NCBI GenBank assembly: GCA_001692895.1 | Contig: KV748214.1 | Location: 744,001-808,000 of the forward strand | Reading direction: 5' to 3' | DNA: 64,000 bases | From: Cenococcum geophilum 1.58 | Lineage: Eukaryota > Ascomycota > Dothideomycetes > Gloniales > Gloniaceae | Part shown: positions 25,938 to 53,049 of the stretch, one piece after another | Layout: each line of letters begins with the position of its first letter | How positions within the stretch are numbered: the first letter of the stretch is position 1 | The notes under the pieces: generated by a model | Database searches by the model: none | The model's input: only the letters and a program-made list of their open reading frames with translations | Told to the model about the DNA's origin: nothing | Position numbers and translations under genes: made by a program

Positions 25938-25942
25938 CTTCC

Positions 25943-28549: not shown

Positions 28550-29020
28550 CAGTGTGGCCAACAGGCAGCGTCGTTATCTCGGTCCTAGACGATCAGCCAA
28601 TTATAAGCTGCTTACATAACAGATTAATCATCTTATGTTGTTGTCGTCTAGTACACGGTTCGGAAATTTGTTAGTCCCTTGCGCCAATTTATATATAATT
28701 CTTATACAAACTCGCGCGCCATACTAAATTTTTAGCCATTAATTAACAACGAACTAACGCCTTTATAGATAATCGGCCAACGTTATATTCTAGAGCTTTA
28801 TAAGGCGATTCTAACGCTGCCAAAATTATTGCAAATAGCCTGGTGGTTACCGCTACGTTTTACCTTAAATATTACCGCTAAAATAGCAAATATTCAGCCA
28901 GAGCCATTAACCATCACCAATCCTTAATATTTGACCTCCTATATTAATATTTATAGTAGATAAACACCTAAATAGCTAATATATTGTATCTAGATTAATT
29001 TTGTGCCTTATTACCTGCTT
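28550..29020. mobile_element. Left arm of the hAT element
   Basis: The terminal inverted repeat is followed by about 150 bp (to about 28720) that recurs in inverted orientation at about 52040-52200 in the right arm. Shared blocks include GACTAACAAA, CCGAACCGTGTAC and GCTGCTTA(T/C)(G/A)TAA. The remainder, to 29020, is AT-rich and non-coding, with moderate CpA retention (for example about 28900-28925). Confidence 0.7.
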
Positions 29021-29023
29021 TAT

Positions 29024-29218
29024 TGCTCCTCCGCTGCCTGCACAAACGCCTGCACAAAAGCCTGCACGAACGCCTGCACGAATGCCTATACAAAGCTCTA
29101 TATAAAGCTCTGCACGAGGCTCTGCTTAAAGGTCTAGTCGAAGCTCTAGTCGAAGCTCTGGTTGAGGGTCTGCTCGAAGCTCTGCTCAAAACCTTATATA
29201 GAGCTTTAAAGCTCTACT
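29024..29218. repeat. 12-bp minisatellite, left part
   Basis: About 16 degenerate 12-bp units of the form gcctgcacgaac / gctctgcacgag / gctctagtcgaa, same strand orientation as the array at 51280-51735. Many units are decayed to forms such as gctctatataaa. Both strands stay open because the unit length is a multiple of three; I do not read this as a gene. The array was probably split by the LINE insertions that follow. Confidence 0.85.
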
Positions 29219-30496
29219 AATACACAGCACTAATATACTAGGAAGGTTCTATAATTAGCTATATAACTACCTATATAATTATTATTATTAATTCTATTTA
29301 TTACCCAATTTGGTCCCTTTTTAAGTCTATATAGGAAAAAGCCCTATAAGGGGAAACCCTTAAGTATTTCCTTTTAGCTAGTTCTACTTATTCCATCTTC
29401 GCCTAGCTAGTATATCTTTATATCTTCTAGTCTACCTTATATACTATACTTCCTAAATATATTAGAAGATCTAAGGGGAGTAGTAAGAAGGTCTAGTAAT
29501 TTGCTAGTAAGCTATCTATAGCTAGCTGGGGGTATTTAATCCTTAAGGGGCTAAAATAGGGCGTATTATTTAGTGTCCTCCTATTAAATCTTATATACTA
29601 TTTAAAACTGCTAGAGAATTCCTTAGCCTATAAGCTATTTTACTACTACCTATAAGCCCCTACTTATAGAGAGTATCTAAGTAATATTATTTATGCCTAT
29701 GCTAGCAAGTAGCTAGTCTCTTATTAAGCGGTAGCTGCAGAATAGTAGTATATAGTATACTAACTAAATAGGCCACCCGTATATATATTAAGGTAAGATA
29801 TTTAAAATATAGATGCTAGCTATATATTTAGACCTAGGACCTTTATTTATAGTAGAAAGGCAGCTATAGATTTTACCTTTATTAGTCCTTTATATAGGAA
29901 GAGAGTTAGTATTAACTATAGGGTATTATATATAGCTGCGTTTTATATTTTTACTACCTCCTTCTATTATTGCTTCTATTTAAGATCTGCCTATCTTATA
30001 ATTAGTATAGTAAATCTCTATCTATATTAGTAGCTTCTTATCCTCTATTATTATTATAGCGCTCTATTAATATAGCGCTAGGTCTTTACCTAGTAAGCTA
30101 ATAATTCTTATATTTCCTTTTCTCTCTTTATTACTTATAGGTAGAGGGCTTCCTAGCTAATATATTTAGGCGTATTACCCCTTTAAGGGGCTATCGCTTT
30201 ATATATATATCTCGTTCCTTATATATATTTTAGTATTTATTATATATTTTCTTCTACTAGGTAGCCTTATACTATAACTGTTCTTTATATAATAGTTAAG
30301 TTAATATATAAGTCTACTAGTAGAACTACTACTTTGCGTTTTAGTATAGCGCGTAGTATTCTTCTATAGGCCCCTATATTAAAATAGTAATTTATAATAC
30401 TGCTAAAAATACTGCTGCTCCCCTATAAGTAGTCTATATAATATACTTATTTTAGTTTAATATAGAGTCTGCCTAAACCCCTAGGACCTTAAGGGT

Positions 30497-30866
30497 TGTT
30501 ATAGGACACCCCTATAATACCTTACACACATCTACCTGTTTCCACCAACTTAGCAATTAGAGACTAACCGCGAAATGGCAATCTAACGGCAATCTAATGG
30601 CAATCTAACGGCAATCTACGGCATTCTGCCATATTCTGCCTAGTTCTACTAAATTCTGCCAAGTTCTGCTAGGACCACAACCTAAACCCTATTCTGCCTA
30701 TGCACGTATTAACTAAGTAACTAAGTTAACAATATATGCCCTTTCTTCCCGTTTTCCTACCTTCTTTCCTTACGCAATATCTTAACCTCCTTATACAGTT
30801 TATATATATAGCTTAATAATATTTACCTTGCTATATATTATCGTCGCTTATACTTACTCTGTAACA
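30497..30866 (+). repeat. 5' LTR of Gypsy-A3
   Basis: A 370-bp LTR, TGTTATAGG...CTGTAACA, preceded by the target duplication agggt. Confidence 0.9.
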
Positions 30867-33800
30867 CTATGTTACGTTAACTACCTATACTACTATTAAT
30901 ATACAGAACGAACCTAAAGCCCCTATAACGGCCGCTAGTATTATATCCGCACTCTAAGAATAATTAATAGGGATATAGAAGTTTTTTATAAACGCCCTTA
31001 AATAAAACCAAGCCACTTTAAATTAATAACAAGCCGAATAAGAAGTATAATATTAGCAATTAATTAAGAACCTCCAAGAAGAAGTCCGCGCCCTTAAGGT
31101 GCCTACGCTAGGACCTTAAAACTAAACACTATCTCTAGAGATAAACACATAAAACGCGAGCCCTAAACCCGTAGTAACTACTTACCTTAAGCTAACTACT
31201 ATACTAAAACAATCCAAACAACTACTAGATCCCCCGGTATTTACTAGTAAATAATAAAAGCTCCAATTATTTCTAAGCTAGCTTAAAAATAAGCTAACTA
31301 GTAATACTAACCGTTACCTAACTAAAGCTAACCAACTCTGTTACGCCCTAAGTTGACTAGGAGGAGATATAGCTAACCTTATTAAACCGCTTTAGCCAAA
31401 CTTAGTATAAAGCCTAGTTGTACTTTTTAAAGCTATATATAGTAACCTAAACCGCTAAGCTATTACTTAAAGAAAGATAAACTACATAACTTAAGGAACG
31501 AAAAGTTTCCTAGTATACTTCTCTAAATTTAACCGTTATATAAAGGAAATAGGCTAGAATAACTCCGCACTAATTAACAGCCTTATTAAATCCCTAAGCC
31601 CTAAACTAAAAACCTCCCTAATAGGCGTAAACCTACCGGGAGCCCTTAATGCCTGCGCAAACGTTATTAATAAATAATACAATAATATACTACGCCTGAT
31701 ACCGAAGCCCGCTCCTTAATATAATACGGCAACCCTATAAATATTTACTAAGTTATTATCTTAGCCTAAGCACCCTAACGCTATAGATATTGACACTAAA
31801 ACCCTAGGGTATGCCCTACTAGGGTCCTTTAAATGAGAATAACGCATTAAGCTAGGCCTCTGCTTTAAATATGGAAGTAGCTCTTACCTCTTTAACTACT
31901 ACTTCGTCCCTATACCTAAACATAAATTACGAATAGCTAATACTAGCAGCCGTTCACCGCATTAATCTTTTAGTTACCGTCCCTAATCTCTACCTAGTTC
32001 TAGCCCTGTATCTAATAAGTACCATTTATAAGGATAAAGCTATAGCTAATGTCCTATAAGAACCCCACCCTAATCGCCTCTAAAAGGAAGGTTTTAGAGC
32101 TAAGTCGCTCTCCAGAATAGCTCTGCTATAGGATCTTATTAAACGCATTTAACGTTACAAACTCTAACTCTTAGGACTGTAGCATAACTATTAACTGCCG
32201 TCTTTGGTAGAATAGTTAATAGGCTAACACTTAAATCCTAATTAATATAGGAGCTAGCGGCATAGGATTTATTAATAAGATCTTTACGTAAGATAATGGT
32301 TTTACCTTAACCCCCCTTAACTAGCATATTAATATATTTGGATTTAATAGCAAATGCACCATCTTAAGCTGTATTACCTATATAGTATTCCTAAGACTCC
32401 AATACCTAAACTATAAAGAATTAATTAAACTTTTTATTACCACCCTAGGTTACTTAGTAATCCTTAGACAACCCTAGATAAAGCTATATAAGGTAACTAT
32501 TAATTAAAATAACCTTAAGCTTCTATTTACTGCCCCCTATTATAAGCAGAAGTGCCTTATAACTCGCTACTTAGACCTAGAACTAAAATCTAAAAAATCC
32601 ACTAGGATCTACCAGTCTAAAATTTCTATAACTATCTACCCCATACCTAAGGAATCCACCAGATTTTACCAACCTAGGAATTTCACTAAATTCCACCGAT
32701 AATCCAAAAACTCTACTAAATTCCATAAGTTATTACTAAGCACTACACCGCCCCAAGCTAAGTAAAAGCTTAAGCTCTATACACGAAAATACTAGAAGGA
32801 TTGGTATTCTACTATAAAAAGGATTCTTAAAGAACCTGAACCCAAATTTAATACTAACTCCGTACCTAATACCAAACCTAAATCTAAATAAGAAACTATA
32901 GATAATCTAAGCGAGCTCGGCACCCTAGATATCCGTATAATTAGAGCTACCCCGCTAGCGTAACTTGCTAAGAAACCCGAGTATACGATCTTCGCTATTA
33001 TAATAGCCGATATTAAGAAGGCCTTAGCACTAAAGAAGTACACTAACCCTGCTATAAAGGTACTAATAGAGTATTATTATCGCCTAGATGTATTTTTATA
33101 AAAGGAAGCCGATAAGCTACTAGAATACCAACTATACGACTATAAGATTATACTTAAAGAAGGAAAGCAGCCTAGATTTAGACCCTTATACGGGATATCC
33201 TAAAATAAACTCTAAGTGCTATAAAAGTATTTAGATAAGAACCTAAGTAAAGGATTTATTATAGTAAGCTTGTCGCCTATAGCCGTACTAGTAATCTTCG
33301 TTAAGAAACCTAGTAGCGGTCTACGCTTTTATATAGACTACTAAGCCCTTAATGCTATTACCGTTAAGAACTAATATCCGATCCCGCTAATATAAGAGAC
33401 GCTAAACCAACTAAGTAAGGCTCATTACTACATGAAGCTTAATATTATCTCTGCATTTAACTATCTCTGTATTACAAAAGGGGATAAATAGCTTACTACA
33501 TTTCGTACCCAATATAAACTATTTAAGTACTTAGTAATACTCTTCGGCCTTATAAACGCTCCGAGTTTGTTTTAACATTATATAAATAACACCCTACGCC
33601 CCTACCTAGACATCTTCTATACTACTTATATTAACAATATCCTAATATATAGTAATAACCTAACCAAATATCGGAAATATATTAACTTTGTCCTATAAGC
33701 CCTATATGGAGCTAGTCTATAATTGGATATAGATAAATATAAGTTCTATAAAATGGAAGTCCTATATCTTAGACTCCTTATTTCTATAAATAGTATATAA

Positions 33801-36064
33801 ATGGATCTAAAAAAAGTTAAAGTAATTATAAACTAGCAAGAACCCAAGAACGTTAAGGACGTAAGAGCCTTTATAGGATTTGCTAATTTCTACTAACGGT
33901 TTATTAATAACTTCTCCGCCCTAGTTTTACCCCTTATAGCTCCAACCTAAAAGGATAAAGTCTTTGTCTTTAATAAGGAATATAAGAAGGCCTTTACCTA
34001 TCTAAAGGTCATATTTACTACTGCGCCTGTGCTCTAATACTTCGACCTGAACCAAATGAGTATTATAAAAGCTGACTTATTTAACTACGTTACTAGAGGC
34101 ATTCTGTCTTAATATAATAAGGATAAAGTATTGCACCCTATAGTATACTTCTTAAAATAACTAAACCCTACCAAATGTAACTACGAGATCTATAATAAGG
34201 AATTGTTAGCTATTATTAGATATTTTAAATAATGGCGACCTAAACTAGAAGGCGCTAGATTTCTAATTAAGGTTTTTAGTAACTATAAGAACCTACAGTA
34301 CTTCACGACCACGAAACAGCTAAGTTATTATTAGGCCCGCTAGTTAGAATATCTATCTCGTTTCCGATTCTTAATTATATACTAACTAGGTGTCTAAGGT
34401 TAGAAGCCTAATGCCTTAACCCGACGCTCATAAGACGCGCCAGCCTTAGAGGAAGGGCGCTCTTACCAAAATCAGACCCTACTTCGCCCTAAACTATTTA
34501 ACCCTCCTACTAAAGATCTTATAGTACACGTTCTTAAAATAACTGATTAATCGATTAAACAGATTATAGTTAATAAATACCCAAATAATAAGTTTATCTA
34601 AGAGACGCTTAAGTTAATGCAAGATAGTATTAGACGCTCTAAAAAGATTTCTTTAAGTAAATGCAAAGCCCACGGAAACCGTTTGTATTATTAGAACCGT
34701 CTAGTTATCCCTAATTATAATAAGCTTAAGCTTAAACTCCTTAAACACGTATACAATCTACCTGTTACTAGCCACCCGGGCCAAAAAAAGACCTTAGAAC
34801 TACTCTAATGGGAGTATTATTAGCCGAACATGCATAACACGATATAAAGGTACATCTTTAGCTGCTATACCTACCGATAAGCTAAAGCCTCGCATAAGAC
34901 GTATAACGGTCTTTTAAAGCTACTACCTGTTCCGGACTGAAGATAGAAGGATATCTTAATTAACTTTATTATTAATCTTCCTAAGAGTAGAGGCTGTATA
35001 AATATTATAGTAGTTATAGACTAACTATCTAAAATAAGATACTTAATCGCCTGCCTTAATATATTAACGCCTGCCGTCGCCTAACTATTCCTAGATTACG
35101 TATAGAAACTCTACAGACTCCCCAAAACAATTATCTCCAATAAAGGTAGCTAGTTTATCTCGGCATTCTAAAAAGAACTAACTACTCAACTCCGTATTAA
35201 AGCACTATTATCTACTACATATTACCCAAAAACGGATGGCTAAACGGAACGTGTAAATACTATAATGGAATAGTATATTCGGATATACATGTCGTATTTA
35301 TAGGATGACTAGATTAACTGGCTCGTATTCGCCGAGTTTACTATAAATAATTCCATCTCAGAAACCACGAAAGTCTCTCCGTTCCTAGCCAATTACGGCT
35401 AGCACCCATAAATAGGTTTTGCACCCTTTAGTAATGTTTCTTTCCTTACTTATTACGCCTTATAAGTCGCAGAAGTAAATAAATTCGTAGAGAAGATGGA
35501 GGAACTATAACAGTTCCTTACTAATAAGATAATATAGGCTTAATCTGTCTATAAAGCCGCAGCGAATAAGAAATAAACCCTAGCACCAGCCTACCAAATT
35601 AGTAATTTTATCTGGCTAGATATAAGAAATCTAAATATAAAACAACCTACTAAGAAACTTAATTGGAAGAACGCTGGCCCTTATAAGGTTAAAAAGGTTA
35701 TCTCTCCTTATGCCTACTAACTAAAGCTCCCTAATACGGTTAAAATCCACCCCGTATTCTATACGTTAGTCCTCCGCCCTACTACCCCCGTATTAGACGC
35801 CCTGCCTAAATAGATATAAAACCCTTCCCTACTAGTTAAAGTAGATAGTGAGAACGAATACTTTATTAAAAGAATTAATAATATTAAGTATAATAAATGG
35901 AAACGCTAATATATGTACCTTATAAAATGGAGAGGCTTTACTAAGTTCTTATGGGAACCTATTAACTCTATAGGACTTATATAAGCCATAGAAGACTTTT
36001 ATAAACTCTACTTAAAACTACTATAGCCCTATCTCGCAGAAGCTTAAGTTTAAAGGGGGGGTAC

Positions 36065-36434
36065 TGTCATAGGATACCCCCGTAACACCTTACACACGTC
36101 CACCTATTTTTACTAACTTAGTAATTAAAGACTAACTGCGAAATAGCAATCTAACGGCAATTTAATGGCAATCTAACGGCAATCTACGGCATTTTGCCAT
36201 ATTCTGCCTAGTTCTACTAAATTCTGCCAAGTTCTGCTAGGACTACAACCTGAACTTTATTCTACCTATGTATATATTAACTAAGCAACTAAGTCAACGA
36301 TATATACCCTTTCTTCCCATTTTCCTACCTTCTTTCCTTACGTAACGTCTTAACCTCCTTATACAGTTTATATATATAGCTTAATAATATCTACCTTGCT
36401 ATATATTATCGTCGCTTATACTCACTTCGTAACA
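36065..36434 (+). repeat. 3' LTR of Gypsy-A3
   Basis: A 370-bp LTR ending TTCGTAACA, followed directly by agggt (36435-36439). Confidence 0.9.
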
Positions 36435-37250
36435 AGGGTAGCTTCTAGTTTTACTTTATAGCTCTAGATATTTACTATTAAGGCTAGGTTACTACTTACC
36501 CTCCTTTTCCTTATAAAGTAGATAAAGTAGTATTTATCTAATGCGAATTTAGCGCCGTATTGTTTTACCTATACGATATACCTATTATATGCTTAGTTTA
36601 GCCTAATATAGTTTCTATTACTATATTTTCCTATATAATTAGATTTATATTATCTATAAATCCTAGGGCTATTATATCCTAGCTATTATTATATATTTCT
36701 AGTAGTTTAAATATAAAGAATAGGAATAGAATTAGTAATAAGGGTAATCCCTATAGGATATCTAGAGGTATTAGTATTAATTCGCTTTTATAGCCCTTAA
36801 TTATAATTTTTATAGTACGCCCTATTAAAAAGGCTTAAATAAACCTAATTATCTAGTTTAGTAGGCCTTTATTCCTTAGAATCTATAAAAGTTTTTTATA
36901 TAATATATTATCTAATACTCCGCTTAGGTCAAGGCTTAGTATAAATATAGTATATCCTAAGTAAGCTTACTATACCGCTTAAATATAAGAGGTAATTAGG
37001 GAAAGAGCTAAGAGAGTTAATCTTTTCTTTCTTACGCCTATTTATGTCCATAGTAGCAGCGTCTATACTTCCGCCGCTTCTTATATACATTTTATAACTA
37101 TCTTTTCTAGGAGCTTTTTTTAGGGTGTTAGAAGTATATAGTAATAAGTATTATATTAATTTAAATCTCTATAAAGGTCTTTAAAACGTATATCTTAAAT
37201 ATACTTTTATATAATTACCTTATAATAGGCGCCCCCTAATAACTTTATAA

Positions 37251-37511
37251 TATTAAAGCAAAGTCCGTAATACTAGCGCGTCTATAGGCTTATTACGGCA
37301 GCAGTGGTTTCTAAAAAGGTTAAAAAGAAAGGTAGTAAAGTACTACAGGTAACTTATAGGCGCTAAGTAGGTAAGTCCTAAAAGGCGAGGAGATAAATTA
37401 CAGGGTTTTCTTAAATAGAGTTTTCTCCCTATATGTATATAAGGAGTAGTCCATATAGGCCTAATAGGGATCCAAATCAGAGGTTAAGCAATAAATAATT
37501 ATTATATAATT
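37251..37511 (+). mobile_element. SINE-like element, 5'-truncated copy
   Basis: About 260 bp homologous to 60695-60955. It is flanked by a 9-bp direct repeat, actttataa (37242-37250 and 37512-37520), consistent with target-primed insertion. The 3' end reads gcaataaataattatta..., a simple A/T-rich tail much like the LINE tails in this window (gcaataaatagaattaata). It lacks the first about 80 bp of the full copy. It has no coding capacity and is RIP-mutated. Confidence 0.7.
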
Positions 37512-37520
37512 ACTTTATAA

Positions 37521-37713
37521 GTATAATTAAAGCTATAATGGCCTATTATAGGATTTTTATAATTCCTTTAAAGGATCTTTTAATAAAGCAAAATATTTTT
37601 AGTATTAAACCTTTACTATTTTATTATATAAGATTGTTTTAATTAAAAAATAATCTTTTATACTAATAGGCATTTCTACCCTTTCTAACTTCTTATAAAT
37701 AGTATAAGAATTA
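37521..37713. other. Unassigned AT-rich stretch
   Basis: Very AT-rich sequence between the SINE copy and Copia-A. I recognise no element. It is continuous with 43970 onward across the Copia-A insertion. Confidence 0.4.
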
Positions 37714-37718
37714 GTAAC

Positions 37719-37989
37719 TGTATAATTATAGCACCTGTTATACCAACCGCGTGCTTACGCGTTCGGTACACCAAGTACGCGTTTACGCGTTCGGTGCACC
37801 AACCACCCGCTTACGCGTCTGGTGCACTCCTGAAGCACTGACTAATTAGGGGGGGAGGACGCATCAGTATATAGACCACGTAGTCTGCTTCAATATAAGA
37901 GACAGTCACCATCCAAACGAGCATACAATACTATACGTATTTCGTGCCCCTGGATACAACTTACTCGTGCTATTAAATTAGTACGAACA
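37719..37989 (+). repeat. 5' LTR of Copia-A with CpG-rich triplication
   Basis: A 271-bp LTR, TGTATAATT...GTACGAACA. Near its start are three tandem units of about 27 bp built on TTACGCGT(T/C)(C/T)GGT(A/G)CACCAA (about 37745-37830). The Copia-B LTR has only one such unit, which accounts for its shorter length. Confidence 0.9.
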
Positions 37990-40900
37990 CTAATTAGTGA
38001 GCGCGCACAGATCAGTAATTACTTGACAACTCCCCCCAAGCAATACACGACAGCGACCACCCGTTTAATCCCAGTACGACCTGCTGGAAGGTCGGAAGGT
38101 GAAGGATTATGGACTATCACCAACTCTGTATACTTATTTAAGTCTTAATACGGTTTACCGGAAGTTTATAGACGCGAATACAGACCTGTATAGAACCCCC
38201 TACCCTAAACCTACCTTTAAACCTCGAACCCCTATCCTCCGTCCTCTTTTTAGACCCCTTATAGAGACCCCTTACCCTTCTGCGAACTACTACGGACCTG
38301 TTAATTGCCCCTATGGACCGTTACAAGACCTTATAGAAACCCCCTACCCTTCTACAAACCGTTACGGACATCCACCGCCTTTACGGACTACTACAAGACC
38401 CTCCCCACCCGCTACGCACTACACTACACAGCATGGCAGACATAAGTAAGCAAATTAATAAAGGCTAAGAGAAGTGGAGTTAGGGAGTCGACCTTACGTC
38501 TATAAACGACGTTAATAACTATATTAAGTTTAAAGTCCTTAAATACGGACATTACAAGCTTATAAACGACGACCTATAGGAGCAATATAAGGAAGACTTT
38601 GCAGACTTTACAGAAGCTACTTTTAAGGCTTGCAGTATTATACCTGTCCGTAACCTACGAAACCTTTTACGTCACTAAGGTGTATGGGTTAAAAAGGACA
38701 AACGAGTCACTGTTGCACGGTCTCTATATAACACACTACGTAAGGAGGACCAAACGGAATGGACTAAAGAGCAGATCTTAGATCACATTAAAACCAGTAA
38801 CCTCTTTGCCTCCTTCAAACTTAATAGAATCTCTGGCCTTATAGCTGACCTATTTAACCAAATTCGTTCCACAAACCCAAGTAGTATTAGAATTAATCTT
38901 ACTGGCCAAAGTATACCCAATACTTAAGTTACAGACCACAATACCACCGTAACCCAAATTACGGACTATAATACCCCTATAAACCAAAATACGGACTAAA
39001 TCACCCCTATTATTTAAGTCACAGATCCGTAAACTACATATCCGCAAACTATATATCCGCAAGCCATATATCCGCAAGCCATAGATCCGCAAGTTACAGA
39101 TCCGCAACCCACCTAAGCGAAGACCTACGGCAAGGAGCTAGCTAACCTAGCTAAGCTCTATACCGACGAATCTAAATACAGCGGTAAAAACGACAATTTT
39201 GATTTTAAACTAACCATCTTTATGGACCTTTGTTAGAAGGCTAATATTCCCAAACAGGAGTTTAGCTAAGCCTACTCTACCATGCTGCGCGGCCTAGCCC
39301 TTAACCACTACTACACCAACCTTAAGAGCAACCCTCTCGGTGTTCCTTTTAATAAGCTATACAAAGCTACATGCAACTACTTTAAAGGACCGGAATATAA
39401 GCGCGATATTCTTACCCAATAGAATGCGACCAAGCTACGGACCGTAATTAACAAGAACACCAAAAAATCGACTACAGAGTGTCTGCAAATCCTTATTAAA
39501 GACCTCTAGCATCTACAGTACGGCCTTAACGCCAAGCTTTAAACAGACGACTTCCTGCATAACAAACTTATTACGGCTTGCCAGGAAGTAGAGCCTTATA
39601 AGTACGCCTATTACAAGCCCGCAGACACCTTAGCTGGCCTTATTAATAATTTACGCTCCTCTATTATAACGTATAAAGTCTTAAACCCACCAGGCAGCAC
39701 TTAAGCCTTTATTACGGATATTTAATATCCGCAAATAGACTTAGACGTCTACTTTACGGACCGCCGCTACCGCTAGCAGCACCCGTACCGACTAAGTCCT
39801 ACCTATAACCCCCGCAGTAACCCCCGTACGAAAACATACCCCCACAGACAAACTAGCCAAAAGTGCTTTATATGCGGTAAGGAAGGATATTAGTCTATAA
39901 GGTATACCTAGGAAGAACATAACAAGTCTAGGAAGAGACTTAATAGCCGCATTAACCAGTTTATTTTGGAATACGAAGGAGAGGAAGCAGAAGAGCCCCC
40001 TAATAAGTTAATAGAAGCCCTTATAATTAACTTTAACTTAAACACTTAGGAATAAGAGACCTTAGAGATATTCCTAACCACTTTCGGACCTTTTACGGAC
40101 AGCTAAGCCTTTAATACTATAACCGCATTAGCCGACCGCTCCTTTATACACTTAATTACGCCCAAAAACCATTCCGTAAGTACCCCTGTTATAGACGTTA
40201 TAGATTATAAGCAGGACCTATTTGCATATATTACCACAGAACGCTATACCCCTAAGAAATTCTACGGTGTTATAATCGATATAGGTACCTCTAAGAAGTC
40301 TACCGCAGGCTACGGACAATACCTCGCATATAGGACCACCACAAATGACAATACGGATATCGATATTACGTAAAATAGGGCCGTAAACGTCCAGTTCGGT
40401 ATCGGCTCAACCACATTAATTAGATTAGTTAAAGTTAAGACCCTAATTAGCCTAGTTAACTTCCACATAGTAAAAGCGGATACCCCTTTTCTACTCTATC
40501 TTGCGGACATAGATAGGTTATAGGTTTACTATAATAATATTACAGATACCGTAATTAGCCCCGCAACTGCCCTAGGAAGCAAGCATATTACCCTGCCAAT
40601 TATACAACGATTTAGACACCCGTTCCTTATATAGGGAGAGACTCTACGGACCTATATTTAGGAATCTTTTAACTATAACCCATGCTACCTTACCAGTACT
40701 GAAATCCACCGCCTGTACCGCCGTTTTAGCCACCTATTAGCCGAAAAGCTATATAGAGTCCTTAAACGCTCTAGACATAACAACGTTAATAGGAAGGCAA
40801 TCAACTACCTAACTAAATACTGCTCCTTTTGCCAGAAATACGGACGTTCCCTAGGCTAATTTAAGTTCACCCTTTATAAGGACCTTAATTTTAACCATTT

Positions 40901-43693
40901 AGTGTACGTAGACATTATATATATTAACGGCAGCCCAGTACTATATATAATCGATAAGGCAACCCACTACTAAGCCGCCCGTTAGTTACAAAATATATCC
41001 ATAAAGCATACTTGGGATATTTTACGGACCTGCTAGATCGATACATACGTCGGACCCCCGCAGTATATTACCCACAACGCTAGTAGGAACTTCATTAGCA
41101 AGGAATTCCAGCAGTATACTACGGCCATAGCTATATTAATAAAAGCCGTTCTAGTTAAGGCACATTAGTCCGTTAGGCTTATTAAGCGAGCTTACCTAGC
41201 CTTACGGAGAGCTTACTAGATTATTACAGACAAATATAAGGACATCTAAAAGGAACTGGCTCTACAGATGGCCGTAAAAGCCGTTAACGACACCGCTAGC
41301 CCTAACGAACTAGTACCCACCCTCTTGGTTTATGGAGCTTACCCAAGGATAAGTAACCTAGGCCCTCCTACCCCATCTATTATGGAACGAGCAGCTACAA
41401 TACGGAAAGCAATAGCTAAAATAGTTAAATTACGGGCCAAACAAGCTGTTAATAGCGCCCTATATTACCGTAACGGACCTAACACGACCTTAGTTTATAA
41501 CCTCCCGCTTAATTCTAAAGTCCTTATATAGCGTAAGAGCGGTAACTGGACCGGACCTTATTATCTACTAGCTGTAGAAAACGAGATATACTGCGTATAG
41601 CTTCCTAGTAGGCCAACTAGCTTCAGAAGCACGTCCGTAAAACCCTACTTTCGGCCCAAAAACACCTATAATGTCGAGCTAGACAAACTAGAAGCAACCA
41701 CCGAACTAGATAAACTAGAAGCGACTACCGAATTAGACAAACTAGAAGCACCCTTACCTACCCTAAAAGTCCCCTAGAAACCCACTAAACCTACTTAACC
41801 TACTATAAAGCATAGTTAAGGACGCCCCTAAAAGCACCCTATAACTAAGAACCCCGTAACAGAGAATTACCTAACCTCCGCAGGAATATCCGCAAGGCAA
41901 TCTCCACCTGCGGATATATCAGTTCTAGTATAGGAAACCCTATTTACGGACTTACGATATAAAGAGATTAACGGACTACTTAAGAAGGGTGTCTTTGCGG
42001 TCGTAACGGAGAGAGACGTTCCGCAAGGCGTCCGTATATTTAACTTACGCTTTATTAACGAGATTAAGCACCCTAGTACTAACAAAGCCTTTAAGAAATT
42101 AAGGCTTATTATATAAGCTTATAATAACCAGGGAAAGGACCTAGTCCTTACGCAATTGCCTACAATTTAACGAGTCAGTTAACGGATTATACTTACGCTT
42201 ACGCCTGGACTACAGCAAACTAAGCCCATAGCCCTCTACTTACGGGATATCTCATAAGCCTACGTGCAGTCTAATACCTACCTAAGTAGGGACATCTTTA
42301 TACGGCCACCCCTTAAGCTTAATTTGCAACTAAAAACAATTTTACGGGTTATAAAACCTCTTTATGGAGTACTAGAAGCCAGAAACCATTAATTTAAGAC
42401 GTACCACTAGTATTATATTAGTAACCTCAAAATGGAACAGTCGACCTACGACCCCTACCTCCTATATACCCTATTAAACGGCCTTAATATCGTTAGACTC
42501 TAAATAGATAATACCCTCTTCCTAGTAAACCAAACCTTTGCGGACGCTAAAGAAACTAAACTATAAAAGGTAAAGTTCTTGGCAAAGCCGCAAAAGCAGT
42601 TAACTAAGTAGACTCCAATTAAGTTTAATGGAGGCTTAATTACACAAAAGGGTAACTTAATTAAGCTAACTTAGGAACGCCAAGCTTAAAACCTAAAGCC
42701 TGTTATAGTAAAGCCTACAGACCTTACCAGTTCCCACGGAGAGACCCATAAGACCATAAATATAAAGGACTAATACGCTACACAGCGTGCAAGAGGCGCC
42801 TATATTGCTACAGTCTGTCAACCTAAATCTACCTATAATTTATCCTTTACGGCCCAGGTAATAGACCCGCAAGAGGAAAATATTAAACAGCTTAATAAGC
42901 GCATTTAGTGGCAAATTGACAATGCAGTAAGGGGACTTACTTTTGTACCACTAGACCTAAATTCCCTTAGCCTACTAGCATTTACGGACGCCTCCTTTGC
43001 CAATAACAAAGACCTGTCATCATAAATCGGCTTTGTAATTGTACTTACGGACCGCAATTAGGACGCAAATATACTATACTAGTCTTCAATTAAGTGCAAA
43101 CAAGTAACCCGCAGTATACTAGCTTCTAAACTATATGCACTAGCTCATGGATTTAATATAGCAGCCGCAATCAAATTAACAGTCCAGAAGATTCTACAAC
43201 TGGAGCAGTTACCCCTGGTTTTATACACCAACTTAAAGTCCCTTTACGACTGCCTAGTCAAACTAGGTACAATACAGGAGAAGAGGCTTATGGTCGACCT
43301 AATGTGCTTACGTTAGGCCTACAAACGACGTGAGATTACGGAGGTTAAATAGATTAACAGCGGAGACAACCCAGCGGACGTAATAACTAAGGCAAAGCCG
43401 TGTTAAGCTTTAAAAACCCTAATTGACACAAACAAGCTTAATCTAAAGGTTACAGAATGGGTGGAACGTAACTAACGGAGCACTTACGGTTCATTTACGG
43501 CCCGTTGGAAGGCCGTACAGCTTACTTTACGGACCGTAAGTAGGACTTACGGCCAGTTTGGAGCACCGTTTGGAAGGCAGCCTAGAAGGCACCTTAGGAG
43601 GGATTTCTTATGTATTTCTTTTGTGTTTTACGGCTCTATTAAAGCAATTACGGAGGCTGTACACAGGTGGTTTCATTTTTCAAGTACCGCTAG

Positions 43694-43964
43694 TATATAA
43701 TTACAGCACCTATTGTACCAACCGCGTGCTTACGCGTTCGGTACACCAAGTACGCGTTTACGCGTTCGGTGCACTAACCACCCGCTTACGCGTCTAGTGC
43801 ACTCCTGAAGCACTAACTAATTAGGGGGGGAGGACGCATCAGTATATAGACCACGTAGTCTGCTTTAATACAAGAGACAGTCACCATCTAAACGAGTATA
43901 CAATACTATACGTATTTCGTGCCCCTGGATACGACTCACTCGTGCTATTAAATTAGTACGAACA
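43694..43964 (+). repeat. 3' LTR of Copia-A
   Basis: A 271-bp LTR carrying the same three CpG-rich units as its partner. It differs from the 5' LTR at few visible sites, mostly C/T or G/A, and is followed by gtaac. Confidence 0.92.
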
Positions 43965-43969
43965 GTAAC

Positions 43970-44400
43970 CTTATCCTATACCATTTAAATATAGTTTAAA
44001 AGTAGTTTAGAAAGTTCTTCCTTAAAAGTTATTTTTAGTAAAAGCTATTACTATTACTTTTTATTATAGTATAAGACTCTATATAAAGTCTATACTAGTA
44101 AGTATATTATATAATATAGATACTATTTATAAAGTTATTATAATAGAGTACCTTAGCTTATTAGTACTATAGTTATAAAGGTCACTTATATACTTTTTAT
44201 ATACTTTTTATAGTATAGTTAATATAGTAGCACTAGATACCTCTTATAAGGCTTATTATCTATAACTTTTACTATATTATTAGTAGTATAGTATTAAAGA
44301 TTATCCTTTTACTGCCTTTTTATAACTCTTTTATATAGTCTAAGTACTATAATAGGCTATTTACCAGGTTTAACTTACTAGGTTTATATTTAATCTTATA
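43970..44400. other. Unassigned AT-rich stretch
   Basis: Extremely AT-rich, tata- and agtata-dominated sequence. I see no recognisable coding or terminal repeat. It may be the 5' untranslated part of LINE-2 or older intervening DNA. It continues 37521-37713 across Copia-A. Confidence 0.4.
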
Positions 44401-47400
44401 ATTAAACTTAGTAAAAAGCCGCTATAGTAGTAGAACACGTCTACTACCTACCTAATAAAGAAACAACTACTCCCAATTAAATCTACAGCATATTATATCC
44501 TAGAACTAATACATATAGTATAGCTGGAAAGCCTGCGCAATATAGGAGGGTTAACGTAGACTTAAAGGTAGGACGCTATATAGAAAATTGCAACACTATA
44601 ATAAACCTAATAGGGGGCGATATAACTATAATAACTAAAAAATAACGACTAGAAATGGTAGGAATTTATAAACATCCTAAAAGATATTAAGGAAGATTTA
44701 GGAAAGAGAGAAAATAAATACCTATGCGTAGGAGTAGCGCGTGCGGCTTAATAGTAGGATAAATTATTTAGGAGCTATAGATAAGATATAATAAAAACTA
44801 AAATGCCATAGAGGATAGGCTTAGGTATATTAAAGATGCTATAAAATTATAGGGAATACTAATAACATACTTAATAAAGCCCTTATAGGCTAATATTGCT
44901 ACTAGTACCTAATTAGTACCCCTCTAGCGTCTACCCAATATAGTACCTATAAGGTCTATAGTTAGGGTCTAAATATTAAAGTTAGTAAGGGTAAAGCTAA
45001 AATAGATCCTTATATTAATTAGAGTATATATACTAAAGGCAGTAGTAGTAGGGGTTCTATATAGTAATAATATAGAGGTTATACTCCTTAACTAATAGGT
45101 AAAGGACTAGGCTATTACTTAGGGAGATCCTCCGTTAAAACTACCCAGTTAAAGTAATTAGGGTACCCCTTAATATATAAGTAGAAAGCGGGTAAGGCGC
45201 TATAAACTTATAACTTATCTAAAAGATTATAGAGGTTACTAAAAACTAGTCTTAGGAATTATAATATTTAGGGTTATATTGCTTTATAGAGTACGTATAA
45301 TATATATATAGGGGTATTACTAGGGTTCTAAGGGGTTAAAATACATAATACCTTAATAATTAACCTATTAACTTAGAAGATATAGACGGTAGAAGCCTAT
45401 AAAGGAATAGTTATAAATAGCCTATAGTATAAAGTCCGGCTATACTACTACGTAGTCTAAATCCGCTAATACTTTAGATACTAGTAGTAAGGCTATACCT
45501 AGAGCGTATATAGGAGATAGGAAAGGTATAGGTGATACGCTAATATATATAAGATGAAGAACTACCCTAAGGATAAGGGAGCTAAATACGTAAACTATAG
45601 TAAAGAATATAAAGTATAGCAGAAGACGGCATATAAAACCTTTTAGGTATACCTAAAGTCTACTAGGTTATAACTACGCTACGGGAAAATATCTATAAGG
45701 AGAAAGAGCTAAGTAGGATAAGTAACGGCGATTAGATAGTTATATAAAGAAAGAGATCTAGAGTACTAACCCTAATAGGGGCACCCTTTACCTAGCTAGT
45801 AGTAAAGGGGAGCGTAGAACACCTATAAGGTAGTACTAACGCCACTAAAGGCCTACCCTAGTAAAGAATTCTAATTATAATAGTCCCTAATAAGACGCCT
45901 TAGAGGCGAATAGAAGATACCTATAAGTTACTAGACTAACTAATACTATAAAAATATTAATAATAGTATAATATAACTACGGACACTTAAACTATAAAGT
46001 AATACATCTCCTATTTAATAGCCTAAACCTAAAAAAGTATTAGATAATAGCCCTATAGGAATTGGTATATAATAAATAACTATGTAAAATATACTAAATA
46101 AAAGGATATTACCTTTTATTTAACTAAACCTAGCTACTTAGTTAATACATTAATATATAGGTATAGAGCTATTACACTATTAGCCCTAATATAGGTAAAC
46201 TATAAGTAGCTACTAATAGGAGCTAAATTAGTATAATTAACATTTATAACCTAAGGGATAATAAACCCTAAATTACTATATAGGAACTATTCTAATATAC
46301 TATTAATATAGTAAAAGGCAAGGTAATAGTCCTAGGGAATTTTAACGCATACTATATAGCGTAGTAAGGATAGTAGGTTATAGCTAAAGTATAGGCGACT
46401 TATCTACTAAATAAGCTTAAAACGTAGAGCCTTACTCTAACTACCCTAATAGGTAAACCTACCTAGAAAAGAGGAACCTAAAAGAGTCTAATCGACCTTA
46501 TATTTATATAAGAAATACTTATAAACTAACTAGCACTTTACGGCCTAGAAGGTATATAGGTAATTATCTTAGACTATATACCTATACGGATAACGCTTAA
46601 TATTGCCGCACTAGCGTAATAAACCCGCTAGAGATATGCTACTAAGAAATTTAACTTAAAAAAGTATGCCTATGAAGTTATTAATAGGCTAGTAGCTATA
46701 CCCTAGGTATTACTAGAGGATATCTAAAGGATTATAAGTAACTGCTTAGAAGAATACTACTTAAAGGCCTAGCTACTTATAGGCGTAAAAAAGGCAAGGC
46801 GATAGTATAATATAATAAATAAAGCCTACTAATAATAGAGCTATAAGGCCCTAAAGAATAGGCCTAAGAAGATAATATAAAAGGAGGGTAGAAATAACTA
46901 GCGCTAATTCCTAAAAGAAATTACCTTAACCTCTACTAAACTATATAATAAGGGCTCTAGTATATATTAAAGTAAAGTAGGTAAGCTACTAGAGAGACGC
47001 TAGGGGACTTTTACCTACTTATACTTTACTAAATAGAATAGGACTAGTATATAAATAATAATAAGGAATAAATTAAAATATTAGTAGAGAGGTTCTTTTT
47101 AGGCGCGGGCTAAGCAGACCTATAAAATATTAGTAGCTAATTTTACCCCTTACCTATTAAAATAAGTTATATAATATTAGTAAAAGAAATAAAAGACACT
47201 ATATTAAAGCTCCCTACTAGTAAAGCGTTAAGGCTAGATAAGACCCTAAATAAGGTAATTAAAGCCGTAGTAGAAGCGGTAGTAATACTACTTACTAGCG
47301 CCGTAACTGCCTACCTTTAGAGAGGCGAACTACTTAAATACTTTATAGCAATAACTATAATTGTCTTATAAAAGGTATTAAAAAAGACTACTCTATTTTA

Positions 47401-49470
47401 GAAAGCTACTAACCCTAAAAAGGCTTTTAGAAAAAATAGTTATAGAATGTATATAAGAAGCGGCGGAAGTATAGGAGCTACTACTGTAGATATAAATAGG
47501 CGTAAGAAAGAAAAGATTGACCCTTTTAGCTCTCTCCCCAATTACCTCTAGTATTTAAGCGGTATAGTAAGCTTACTAAGGATATATTATATTTATACTA
47601 AGCCTAGACCTAAGTAAAATATTTAATAATATATTATATAAGAGACTTTTATAAATCCTAAGAAATAAGGGTCTACTAAACTAGATAATTAAGTTTATCT
47701 AAGCCTTTCTAATATAGCGTACTATAAAAATTATAATTAAGGGCTATAAAAGCGAATTAATACTAATACCTATAGGTATTATATAGGGATTACCCCTATT
47801 ACTAATTCTAATTATTTTCTTTATATCTAAACTACTAGAGATATATAATAATAGCTAGTATATAATAGCCCTAAAATTTATAGATAATATAAATTTAATT
47901 ATATAGGAAAATATAGTAGTACAAAACTATACTAGGCTAAACTAGGGATATAATAGGTATATTATATAGGCAAAACAATATAGCGCTAAATTCGTACTAG
48001 ATAAATACTAGCCTATTTACTTTATAAGGGAAAAAAAGGTAAGTAGTAACCTAGCCTTAATAGTAAATATCTAGAGCTATAAAGTAAAACTAGAAGCTAT
48101 CCTTAAGGTCCTAGGGGTTTAAATAGACTTTAGGTTAAACTAGAACAAGTATATTATATAGGCAACTTATAAAGGAGTAGGAGTATTTTTAATAGTATTA
48201 TAAATTACTACCTTAATATAGGGACCCCCTTTTAAATATATACGCCTACTATATATAGCAGTAGTAAGGCTAATAATACTATACAGCTCCTAAATCTAGG
48301 GCCTAGGACTAGGTAGTAAGGTACTAATAAAAAGCTTTCTAGTGCTATTAGCTAAGCTATAAAACTAGTACTTATATAGAACTATAGAGGCCTATAGAAG
48401 AACACTATGCGCCATACTAGAACATAAAGGAGTAGTTCTACTAGTAGACTTATATATTAATATAACTACTATATAGAGAATAGTTATAGTATAAGGCTAC
48501 CTAGTAAAAGAAAATATATACTAAATACTAAAATATATATAAGGAACGAGATATATATAAAAAGTGATAGCCCCTTAAAGGGGTAATACGCCTAAATATA
48601 CTAGCTAGGAAGCCCACTACCTATAAATAGTAAAGAGAGAAAAGGAAATATAGAAACTACTAGCTTACTAGGCAAAGACCTAGCGCTATAATAATAATAG
48701 AGAATATAAGGTTACTAATATAGATAGAAATCTACTATACTAATTGCAAGATAGATATATTTTAAATAGAAGCGATAATAGAAGGAGGTAGCGAAAATAT
48801 AAGACTGAGCTATAAAGAACACCCTATAGTTAATACTAATAAAGGTAAAATCTATAGCCGCCTTTCCACTATAGATAAAGGTTTTAGGCCTAAATATATA
48901 GCTAGTAAATATCTATATTCTAAATGCCTTACCTTAATATATATACGGGTGGCCTATTTAGCTAGTATGCTATATACTATTATTTTATAGCTACCGCTTA
49001 GTAAGGGACTAGTTCCTTACTAGTATAGGCATAAATTATATTACTTAAATACTCTCTATAAGTAGAGGCCTATAAATAGTAGTAAAATAGCTTATAGGCT
49101 AAGGAATTCTTTAATAGTTCTAAATAGTATATAAGATCTAATAGGAGGATACTGGAAGATACGCCTTATTTTAGATCCTTAAGGACTAAATACCCCCGCC
49201 TAGTTATAGGCGGCTTATTAGCAAATCGCTAGGCCCTTCTACTACCTCCCCTTAGATCTTCTAATATACTTAAAAAGTATAGTATATAAGGCAGACTAAA
49301 AGATATAAAGATATACTAGCTAGGTAAAGGTGAAACGTATAGAATTAGCTAAAAGGAAATACTTAGGTTTTTCCCCTTATAGGGCTTTTTCCTATATATA
49401 AAGGTGGAAGCCTATATAGACCTAAAAAGGGACTAAACCAGGCAATAAATAGAATTAATAATAATAGTAT
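44400..49470 (+). mobile_element. LINE-2: near full-length Tad1-like LINE
   Basis: The most complete non-LTR element here. ORF1-like sequence with zinc-knuckle (CCHC-type) repeats is at about 45430-45660, where most cysteines now read as tyrosine. ORF2 has an apurinic-type endonuclease domain (about 45980-46680) with an L-G-N-F-N-A motif at 46331-46348 (active enzymes have GDFN), and reverse transcriptase (about 47150-48300). The catalytic box is F-I-D-N at about 47877-47890 rather than FxDD. A C-terminal extension runs to about 48850, followed by about 600 bp of 3' untranslated DNA and the tail gcaataaatagaattaataataata (ending about 49470). All the substitutions fit C-to-T at CpA. Stops are numerous. 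The 5' limit is approximate. Confidence 0.8.
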
Positions 49471-49950
49471 ACTATATACTACATTTCTATAGCTACAGCT
49501 TAGTAAGGGACTAGCTATTTACTAGCATAGGTATAAATTATATTACTTAAATACTCTCTATAAATAGAGGCCTATAAGTAGTAATAAATAGCTTATAGCT
49601 TAAGGAGTTCTTTAGTAGTTTTAAATAGTATATAAGATCTAATAGAAGAATACTAAAGGATACGCCCTTTTCTAGCCCCTTAAAGACTAAATACCCCTAC
49701 CTAGCTGTAGGTAGTACGCTAGCGAATTACTAAGTACTTCTACTAACCCCCTTTAGATCTTTTAATATACCTAAAGATATAAAAATATATTAGTTTAATA
49801 AAGGTAAAATATATAAAACTAGCTAAAAGGAAATACTTAGGTTTTCCCCCTTATAGGGCCTTTTCCTATATAAAAAGGTAGAAGTATATATAGCTCTAAA
49901 AAGGAACTAAATTGGGCAATAAATAGAATTAATATAATAATTATATACTT
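49471..49950 (+). mobile_element. LINE-3: 5'-truncated LINE 3' end, tandem to LINE-2
   Basis: A second copy of the LINE 3' region, collinear with 48965-49460. It starts immediately after the A/T tail of LINE-2 and ends with its own tail (gggcaataaatagaattaat). Severe 5' truncation is typical of LINE insertion. It may have inserted into the A/T tail of LINE-2. Confidence 0.75.
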
Positions 49951-49984
49951 AAGCTTAAAGCTTAATATAAAAATTTAAATCTCT

Positions 49985-51176
49985 TTATAAATATTTATTG
50001 CCTAATTTAGTCCCTATTTAGGTCTTTATAGGCTTTTACCTTTCTATATAGAAAAAGGCCCTATAAGGGGAAACCCCTAAGTATTTCCTTTTAGTTAGTT
50101 TTATACGTTTTACCTTTACTAAACTAATATATTTTTATATCTTTAGGTATATTAAAAGATCTAGGGGAAGGGGGGGTAGTAAAAGTATCTAGTAATTTAC
50201 TAGCGTACTACCTACGGCTAGGTAGCGGTATTTAGTCTTTAAGGGGCTAAAAGGGGGCATATCCTTTAGTGTCCTCCTATTAAATCTTATATACTATTTT
50301 AGAACTACTAAAGAACTCCTTAGGCTATAAGCTATTTTAATACTATTTATAGGCCCCTACTTATAGAGAGTATAAGTAATATAATTTATACCTATACTAG
50401 TAAATAGCTANTACCTTACTAAGNNGTAGCTATAGNAAAGTAGTATATAGTATACTAACTAAATAGGCTATCTATAAGTGTATTAAGGTATAGTATTTAG
50501 AATATAGATACTTACTAGCTATATATTTAGGCTTAAAATCTCCATCTATAGTAGGAAGGCGGCTATAGATTTTACCTTTATTAGTCCTTCATATAGGGAG
50601 AGTATTAGTATTAACTATAGGGTATTCTATATAGCTACGTCTTATATTTTCGCTACCTCCTTCTATTATCGCTTCTATTTAAGGTCTACCTATCTTNNAA
50701 TAAGTATAGTAGATCTNTATCTATACTAATAGCCTNTTATCCTCTATTACTATAGNANTACTCTANTAGTANAGCGCTAGGTCTCCGCCTAGTAAGCTAG
50801 TAGTTTCTATATTTTTTCTCTCTCTCTATTACCTATAGGTAGAGGGCTTCCTAGCTAGTATACTTAGGCGTATTACCTTTTTAAGGGGCCCTCGCTCCTT
50901 ATAATTATATATCTTATTCCTCATATATATTTTCTTTTACTAGGTAGCCTTATACTATAACTATTCTCTATATAATAGTTATATTAATATATAAGTCTAC
51001 TAATAGAACTACTACTTTATGTTCTAGTATGGCGCGTAGTGTTCTCTTATAGGCCCCTAAGTCCTATATAAGTACTAGTTTTTATAGCTTCGCTAGTAGC
51101 GCTAAGAGCTTTATTAATACCTTACTACTTAGTCCTAGGCCCTAGATCTAGGAGCGTATAGTATTATTAGTCTTAC
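49985..51176 (-). mobile_element. LINE-4: 5'-truncated LINE in opposite orientation
   Basis: Reverse complement of roughly 48263-49450 of LINE-2. The 3' tail faces the tail of LINE-3, so LINE-3 and LINE-4 form a tail-to-tail inverted pair. Truncation on the 5' side is at about 51176 (near cttaccat). Ambiguous bases cluster at 50411-50780, possibly from reads of the inverted copies being mixed. Confidence 0.78.
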
Positions 51177-51269
51177 CATAAATAAATTAATAAATATCTA
51201 TATAATTTTCCTATATAATTATTCTTAAATTCTATAATTAATTACTAGTATAAAATATATATCTATCCC

Positions 51270-51735
51270 TATATATTTATATAAAGCTCTATATAAAGTT
51301 CTATACAAGGCTCTGTATAAAGCTCTATACAAAGACTCTACCAAAGCTCCGCTTAAAGCTCTACTCAAAGCTCTGCTTAAAGCTCTGCTCAAAGCTCTGC
51401 ACAAGGCCCTGCTTGAAGCTCTGCGCAAGGCTCTGCACGAAGCTCTGCACGAGGCTCTACACGAAGCTCTGCGCGAGGCTCCGCACGAAGCTCTGCACGA
51501 GGCTCTGCACGAAGCTCTGCACGAAGCTCTGCACGAAGCTCTGCACGAAGCTCTGCACGAAGCTCTGCACGAAGCTCTGCACGAAGCTCTGCACGAAGCT
51601 CTGCACGAAGCTCTGCACGAAGCTCTGCACGAAGCTCTGCACGAAGCTCTGCACGAAGCTCTGCACGAAGCTCTGCACGAAGCTCTGCACGAAGCTCTGC
51701 ACGAAGCTCTACCAAAGCTCTACGTAAAGCTTACC
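51270..51735. repeat. 12-bp minisatellite, right part, with a clean 17-unit core
   Basis: About 38 units of 12 bp. The core 51502-51705 holds 17 identical copies of gctctgcacgaa. Units toward the left edge decay to forms such as gctctatataaa, the expected RIP product of gctctgcacaaa. All three frames on both strands stay open through the core, giving repetitive peptides (Leu-Cys-Thr-Lys, Ala-Glu-Leu-Arg, Gln-Ser-Phe-Val) that I regard as non-genic. Confidence 0.92.
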
Positions 51736-52072
51736 CCCTTCTGCAAGGCAAATCTATACCTACTAGCAGTCCTTAAGTATTATTTAAAGCTGGCATATTA
51801 ATTTAGGTACTCTAGCTGCGGTAAGAAGAGGGCGGCGGTAGTTGTGGGAGGGGTGCAGCCGCTACGACTCAGGGGCGTCGGGCGCGATAATAAGACAACA
51901 AATTGGAATCGGGCAAATCGGGCAACGTAGTCTTCTTCGCCAGGTTTGATTTGGTAATTCTAGCCATTAGGAATAGCTTGGGGAGCTATAGAAGTTGAGA
52001 TAATTTGGCTTAAAGTAGGTGTATATAGGCCCAAATACGCCGCGCGGGACTAACAAAAATCCGAACCGTGTA

Positions 52073-52145
52073 CCAGACCTTCTAACGAAGGTCTTGCCAA
52101 AAGCGGTTGGCGTCTTGGCAAGGTAAGCCTTGGCAAGAAGGTCTG
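52073..52145. repeat. Hairpin-forming inverted repeat
   Basis: Arms ccagaccttct (52073-52083) and agaaggtctgg (about 52135-52145) are perfectly inverted. A second inner pair uses cttggcaag / cttgccaa motifs. Subterminal hairpins are common in non-autonomous hAT elements. Confidence 0.75.
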
Positions 52146-52235
52146 GGAACGAGACAACAGCGTCGCTGGCAGCCAGCTGCTTATGTAAGCAGTCAGTCAG
52201 TGTATACAGCCATAACAGTCAGTCAGCGGTAAGAC

Positions 52236-52260
52236 TGCAGCGAGCTGTCAGCTCGCTGCA
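52236..52260. repeat. Perfect 12-bp-arm palindrome
   Basis: Arms TGCAGCGAGCTG and CAGCTCGCTGCA are separated by a single T. The same GCGAGC motif recurs near the right terminus (about 52963-53030). Confidence 0.9.
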
Positions 52261-52302
52261 TAGGTGGTAGGAAAGGATCAATTTGGTGGTGTTTTAAAGC
52301 TT

Positions 52303-52581
52303 TTAGTAGGGATTAAGGATCCAAGGATCTTCCGCTAAAATTCGGGCGGGAAACTCTGGGATATTTATATAAAATAGTATAGTTTTCTCCAAATTCCCCT
52401 TCGCGTCTACAGTCTTGCGCACGACCAGCTTCACCCCTTTCGCGCGAGATTTTAAATTCGGTACGCGCATCCAGTCTCGCTTAACTACCACCAACTATAC
52501 ATAGTAATAGTAGCGAAGCCATATGCTTGGCTGCGGCAATCGGCCTTCCTCCACAGTATCGTGATCTTCGTTAAATATCAT
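52303..52581 (-). pseudogene. Short unknown reading frame with one internal stop, carried by the hAT element
   Basis: A minus-strand frame of 93 codons from ATG at 52581 to TAA at 52303, starting M-I-F-N-E-D-H-D-T-V-E-E-G and ending D-P-W-I-L-N-P-Y. One in-frame TAG at codon 29 (52495-52497) fits a RIP-type CAG-to-TAG change, and the frame is otherwise open. It is also open for about 20 codons upstream of the ATG. The composition is protein-like, with mixed charged and aromatic residues and normal codon variety, unlike the repeat-derived frames. I recognise no domain. It could be a decayed remnant of the transposon's own gene or a captured host fragment. Confidence 0.4.
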
Positions 52582-53049
52582 GGTTTCCACCCGTATAATA
52601 TTGCTTATCGACCTCGTGTTTTGGCGGCTATAACGGAGGCGTAGTTAAGGGGGAGAAGAGGAAGCGTACGTCTTTAATTTAATTCTCCTAGCTAACTAAG
52701 GCGATTCTCTAGGGTAACTAAAAAGGTTTACCTAACCCCGCTACTACTAACTTTTTTAATGCCTGCGCGGTACGCCAACTAAATCTAACGATATCTAAAC
52801 ACTATATAGGGTTAGATTTAAGATCGGGCAACGTTAATATTTGTGTATATTAAAGATCTAAAATTTAGCTCTATAACTCTATTAGATCTATACAAATTAC
52901 CCGATTTAGATAAGCGCGCTAATAGCTGTGCAGTTAGCGTATACATATACCCAGCGAGCGGACAGCGAGCGATTTAATTAGTACAGTCAGTTAGCGGAGC
53001 TCGCTGAACGCTGACTGTTGGCTACACTGATATATTAAGACTTTATTAT

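Follow-up and report, generated by a model that had tools for sequence, protein, structure and literature searches.

The hAT transposons have short inverted ends whose consensus starts with CAG, and hAT MITEs are common. Clusters of nested transposable elements have been described in Mycosphaerella graminicola, where nesting was verified by the target duplication of the base element and the clusters span 12-26 kb in the table rows drawn on here (PMC4522978). Two further systems offer comparisons for the largest element described below: Tetris, a Foldback element of Drosophila virilis, is an apparently non-autonomous DNA transposon with tandem repeats near its ends (PMC4079207), and the Tm1 Mutator/Foldback elements of root-knot nematodes have 9-bp duplications (PMC3169594).

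The window, the whole stretch of 64,000 nucleotides from Cenococcum geophilum 1.58 analysed here, had been described in a first-pass annotation as containing a 2.4-kb hAT element stretched by nested insertions. We propose, with a probability of roughly 0.94, a four-level stack of independent transposon insertions. A Copia element forms the first level; an 888-bp non-autonomous hAT, inserted in the Copia with duplication of ATATATTA, the second; a large DNA transposon, element B (~11 kb without its own guests), inserted in the hAT 24 bp from its left end with duplication of CAGCGTCG, the third; and three separate guests of B, namely a putative Gypsy LTR element, LTR element X and a piece resembling a SINE, the fourth. 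An empty form was read for every insertion step – the hAT in Copia, B in the hAT, and the three guests in B. Most of the apparent 24.5-kb span of the hAT is B, which inserted there and itself received further elements. Nesting of this kind is ordinary; the large element B may be undescribed.

The host, a minus-strand Copia element, is broken some 50 codons ahead of its SH3-like domain. This identification follows from an RVT_2 match in the window (26453-27167, E 2.1e-22) and from two other loci, L056 and L061, where RVT_2 and the SH3-like domain are arranged as expected. In both of these loci the RT side of the host (26713-27863, minus strand) runs on directly into the following pieces of the element. 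In the window it is followed by a 323-bp element (27864-28186) that has the inverted ends TCCCTTAGCACGT, is flanked by a TA duplication, and is absent in copies that join 27864 to 28186; we label it, by structure only, a Tc1/mariner-like MITE inside the host Copia. The SH3-like domain region, to which SH3_retrovirus of L061 and L056 maps, then runs up to the hAT site (28187-28549, minus strand). Beyond the hAT the host continues, all on the minus strand, at 53038-53428 (by flank matches), 59438-60612 and 60956-61117 (both by similarity to other Copia loci). These pieces are separated by a second LTR element of the X type (53429-59432, plus strand, duplication ATTAC) and by a SINE-like insertion (60613-60955) with a 12-bp duplication CTACCTTAGGTA and a (TTA)n tail. 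That the Copia stops at the left hAT duplication and resumes at the right one had been noted at first pass and stands; the region had also been called integrase, a label that we refine: the domain closest to the site in profile searches is SH3-like, of the kind that comes after the integrase (placed by way of L061 at 28195-28397 on the minus strand), and an integrase-core profile match was not obtained for the host Copia.

The genome was searched with 600 bases to the left and 401 bases to the right of the hAT site, using the best 40 of 478 and the best 40 of 167 candidates, respectively, and 38 flank loci other than the window's own were fetched. Thirty-three of these are uninterrupted at the site, supplying the undisrupted Copia that the first-pass annotation had proposed to look for (the count omits another partial match in L036, where the gap is 138). 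The flanks overlap by exactly 8 bases in all 33, so uninterrupted Copia carries one copy of the site. By coordinates the 33 loci represent 25 of 30 genome places, and their junctions have 25 different sequences. As for the remaining five, the match is confined to the neighbouring MITE in L051 and L052, the left and right flanks are not contiguous in L072, and L049 and L057 lie 28 kb apart on one contig, with L049 meeting a SINE-like repeat at the hAT site. Together with the duplication and the hAT domain in long relatives (see below), these loci prove the insertion of the hAT into Copia, as had been supposed.

The left end of the hAT, CAGTGTGGCCAACAGGCAGCG, lies at 28550-28570 and its inverted partner, CAGTGTAGCCAACAGTCAGCG, ends at 53029; the two match at 19 of 21 positions and are short inverted ends of the CAG type. 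The 8-bp sequence ATATATTA stands flush outside both (28542-28549 and 53030-53037) and is present as a single copy in the 33 contiguous Copia loci. The left end, the 19/21 match and the flush duplication had all been reported correctly, with the partner end placed at 53049; the actual end is 20 bases short of this, and the sequence of the last 21 bases up to 53049 is unrelated. The pattern of end and duplication exceeds chance, because, with as many as three mismatches allowed, the 177-Mb genome has 101 forward and 114 reverse occurrences of the 21-mer end against 0+0 for a reversed control, and equal 8-mers at the spacing of the hAT ends are found at 5 of 39,500 window positions.

Once B and one duplication copy are left out, the hAT is 888 bp long, and we take it from this size as non-autonomous. 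It consists of 24 bp to the left of B (28550-28573, plus strand), delimited by the recurrent 21-mer and by comparison with other hAT ends, and of a remainder that includes the right end (52166-53029, plus strand). The 888-bp form aligns without gaps at B's insertion place in 13/13 other hAT ends. Ten end pairs elsewhere in the genome were read whole; the 8-bp duplication is exact in six and has one mismatch in two, so that the search for further copies with the same ends and duplication, also suggested at first pass, succeeded in eight, and a convincing duplication is absent in the other two (L075 and L076). Longer relatives carry Dimer_Tnp_hAT, the hAT dimerisation domain (PF05699), as in L079 (3,240 bp, E 1.2e-8) and L080 (3,344 bp, E 9.5e-8). 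Genome matches to PF05699 fall inside five pairs of 21-mer ends when coordinates are compared by eye (C4:5386915-5390161, C15:1831656-1834866, C49:259904-263181, C1:2349127-2357724 and C2:1162701-1163855; C numbers denote contigs). The hAT copy in the window also contains a dispersed repeat of ~320 bp (52407-52727, edges approximate), recognized by its similarity genome-wide. Its 97 genome matches, from the best 40 of 317 candidates, show 66-91% identity besides itself; it is not matched in the 16 other hAT loci compared, and elsewhere it often has inverted neighbours.

After its first 24 bp the hAT is interrupted by B (28574-52157), which has its own ends, TTATCTCGGTCC... at the left and ...GGGAACGAGACAA at the right, and its own 8-bp duplication, CAGCGTCG (28566-28573 and 52158-52165, placed by the boundaries of B and by the hAT alignment). 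Taken alone this duplication is weaker evidence, because several hAT copies have, at the target of B, a tandem repeat of 12-bp units that include these 8 bp. The insertion is settled because B has the same boundaries elsewhere: these are identical at 12 further left ends and 13 further right ends, whose flanks otherwise differ. Close to each end, on its inner side, B has self-complementary arms. They measure 6-13 bp at 12 left ends and 9-11 bp at 12 right ones (the window's own counted in each set), and the left and right stems are not alike. The observed arm was reached in 0-5 of 500 shuffles at 12/12 right ends; at the left the corresponding figures are 0-23 at 8/12 ends (12 for the window's own), 46 at one, and 156-181 at three. 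The shuffle control therefore supports a hairpin at the right end and partly supports one at the left, the B copies compared being related and not independent tests.

Element B is a large, high-copy DNA transposon family carrying minisatellite arrays. A degenerate pattern of both ends has 205 exact genome matches (90 forward and 115 reverse), and its reversed control has 0+0. Fifteen facing pairs were assembled, comprising 13 within 35 kb among the 100 matches listed and two from searches with 28550-29035 and 51740-53029; they span 9,453-32,029 bp. Duplications accompany 14 of the 15, as exact 8-bp copies in nine, exact 9-bp copies in two (C1:3506612 and C9:1962253) and copies differing by 1-2 transitions in three; one pair (C6) has no convincing duplication. 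Two copies on contig C18 (L091-L094; 17354-31392 and 1544658-1561768) occupy an identical base position in the same flanking repeat, with duplication CTCGCGTA and in opposite orientations, as the result of either a target hot spot or an inversion; both are among the nine exact 8-bp cases and are not independent. The only copies read whole without a large gap are L102 (9,621 bp) and C1:3506612-3520331 (13,720 bp, 64 N), here called the C1 copy; the copy in L101 contains a run of N of ~5 kb. Two B copies, C3:5581344-5598453 (17,110 bp) and C18:1544658-1561768 (17,111 bp), are nearly the same length. In L011 (positions 1962-1971) two B elements stand in succession, exactly 8 bp separating the right end of the first from the left end of the second.

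The most serious competing explanation sees B as a block of satellite-rich sequence, duplicated segmentally and dispersed when repeats recombined. The tandem arrays and internal inverted repeats of B would fit such a block, as would the contigs that end in B, the flank shared by the two C18 copies, and the scans of parts of B, in which a transposase domain was not found. Fixed ends in otherwise different flanks, duplications of 8-9 bp at 14 of 15 pairs (11 exact, the others differing by transitions only) and the clean insertion of B in a hAT copy of known empty form all argue against it, and we consider it very improbable. Seven of the 100 B ends listed (on C4, C5, C13, C15, C20, C21 and C29) lie within 0.8 kb of a contig end and point off it; the tandem arrays of B may break the assembly at such places.

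Less credible again is the first-pass reading itself, in which one 2.4-kb hAT (28550-29250 plus 51200-53029) received LINEs, Gypsy, SINE and Copia elements directly. Its outer ends and duplication are correct, and the related 12-bp repeats on the two inner flanks do suggest a single element, which is, however, B. The second 8-bp duplication, 24 bp inside the left end, separates the inner flanks from the hAT, and both the size of the hAT and its role as a landing pad are revised for this reason: only 28550-28573 and 52166-53029 are hAT. Short copies aligning to 28550-29250 plus 51200-53049 had been predicted. In the 16 other hAT loci compared (10 whole end pairs and six single ends with 1.5 kb of flank), 52166-53029 is matched, at least in parts, by 16/16, and the B parts 28574-29250 and 51200-52157 by 0/16. 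Matches to 28550-29035 (best 40 of 190 candidates) include the hAT end in the window's own locus only; 42 of 43 begin after the 21-bp end, mostly at 28571-28574. Similarly, a search with 51740-53029 gave 41 matches among the best 40 of 733 candidates, a list outside which the hAT matches further right lie; the 40 that do not belong to the window itself stop at or before 52165, mostly at 52157. The mistake corrected here is a natural one, and illustrates that outer ends and a perfect duplication do not make all of the adjoining sequence one element. Following it up has revealed a large, high-copy DNA transposon family with minisatellite arrays, found at several contig ends.

In the four-level stack, the left part of B (28574-30496, plus strand) starts with TTATCTCGG..., at the boundary 28574 seen in other copies; it contains 12-bp repeats (29036-29190) and a module, Y1, and runs collinear to the C1 copy. 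Next comes a putative Gypsy LTR element (30497-36434, plus strand, duplication AGGGT), an insertion in B and probably the element previously named Gypsy-A3. The rest of Y1 follows (36440-37225, plus strand), then a SINE-like insertion (37226-37505, right edge approximate) and a further segment of B (37506-37718, plus strand), both of these B segments being identified from the C1 copy; 37224-37505 is similar to 60672-60953 and so is related to the SINE-like insertion at 60613-60955. LTR element X (37719-43964, plus strand, duplication GTAAC), possibly the former Copia-A, yielded no domain in six frames. The right part of B (43970-52157, plus strand), assigned from the C1 copy and L102, comprises a LINE-like stretch from ~44.4 kb, module Y2 (47412-49947, inverted), module Y3 (49992-51176), a 12-bp array (51278-51721) and the end ...CGAGACAA. 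The Gypsy, the SINE-like piece and X are identified as guests of B by the 5-bp duplications of the two LTR elements and by the absence of all three from the C1 copy, which is otherwise collinear with most of the window's B; without them B amounts arithmetically to ~11.1 kb. No counterpart in place was found for 49.7-51.55 kb of the window or for 10.1-13.1 kb of the C1 copy, which there has 3 kb of its own. L102 matches 50142-52157 in one piece and is rearranged elsewhere. The last 605 bp of B (51553-52157) are 95% identical to the C1 copy and the other collinear blocks 83-91%, as if the right end were less decayed.

The segments 29264-30496, 36440-37126, 47412-49947 and 49992-51176 are related modules, partly inverted with respect to one another. 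Because they recur in other B copies, we reject a reading of the Y modules as LINEs inserted separately in the hAT; the repeats previously taken as LINEs are mostly B itself, and the other supposed arrivals in the hAT (Gypsy, SINE-like piece and X) landed in B. The LINE-like stretch is present in some B copies and, in a more diverged form, at places for which inspection by eye made no connection to a B end. An artefact of assembly or scaffolding joining unrelated repeats, for which the repeat-rich genome and scattered Ns at 50411-50772 might speak, can hardly be entertained when the junctions fall where elements end and targets are duplicated, and when most of the window's B has a collinear counterpart in the C1 copy.

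As to how the stack arose, the hAT would have been cut and pasted by the transposase of its longer relatives with the hAT domain, and B would have been moved by a transposase acting on its matching ends, presumably in trans unless its gene has decayed beyond recognition. Mutation of the RIP type may afterwards have decayed the layers. B has a RIP-like dinucleotide bias (TA/AT 1.76, (CA+TG)/(AC+GT) 0.45), and the same indices are 1.45 and 0.81 in the right part of the hAT; we assume here that these indices can be read as RIP marks. Dating by LTR divergence was dropped, since the differences are mostly transitions (41 of 46 in one LTR pair, flanks included), as RIP would yield. The LTR element in B at 30497-36434 belongs with 6102-12194, 20152-25939 and an LTR-sized piece at 1812-2143 to one LTR family within 36 kb. 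Elsewhere in the window, 12200-14600 is GC-rich (0.47 in 12001-14000) with many short tandem repeats, in AT-rich, decayed surroundings, and holds 5 of the window's 17 open stretches of at least 90 codons. No Rfam family scored above threshold in the window.

A transposase was not found in B in Pfam scans of translated frames (with X at stops), which covered all six frames of window positions 36435-52157 and of L102 and, for the C1 copy, all six frames of L110 and two of the six frames of L109. The LINE-like stretch gave a weak endonuclease-type match (46227-46514, E 0.01, below the cut-off), and DUF445 and similar weak matches, which in the window and L110 lie on the 12-bp arrays, were taken there as repeat artefacts. 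Genome-wide there are 79 MULE transposase matches and 150 hAT transposase matches (best of 585 candidates), none of either within the 15 B pairs as compared by eye. The ends of B, TTATCTCG and TTGTCTCG, are not of the CAG type. The KDZ transposase (PF18758, KDZ/Zisupton) has no match in the genome, and none in 14 control genomes either. Mutator-like elements have duplications of 8-11 bp; those of B, mostly 8 bp and 9 bp in 2 of 15 pairs, fall within this range, which is not specific to that superfamily. B does not have the long inverted repeats of tandem units of the Foldback type: the arrays at 29036-29190 and 51278-51721 are directly oriented, and matching the C1 copy end to end in inverted orientation yielded a short tip and a 38-bp block. 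It is conceivable, and we suggest it tentatively, that B represents a family of DNA transposons as yet undescribed, of giant size (~10-17 kb), which duplicates 8-9 bp of its target, combines self-complementary arms (clear at the right end, weaker at the left) with direct 12-bp arrays and inverted modules, and is moved by a transposase outside the families tested. This suggestion is set against the literature, where a limited, weak search gave no description in which we recognized B. If it were true, the spread of arrays by B would seed minisatellites and break assemblies genome-wide.

The hAT of the window resembles non-autonomous, MITE-like hAT copies in its CAG-type inverted ends, its 8-bp duplications and its relatives with Dimer_Tnp_hAT, and differs from them in holding an extra 320-bp repeat and element B. 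B resembles Tetris in being apparently non-autonomous with tandem repeats near its ends, whereas its arrays are direct, not inverted, and its inverted ends are short (PMC4079207). Its likeness to Tm1 is by duplication length (8 bp, and 9 bp in 2 of 15 pairs), and unlike Tm1 it has 0 MULE matches inside its 15 pairs (PMC3169594). The locus as a whole resembles the M. graminicola clusters in that the base element is shown by its target duplication; the base elements in that table are LTR elements, whereas the middle layers of this locus are a hAT and, within it, a large DNA transposon (PMC4522978).
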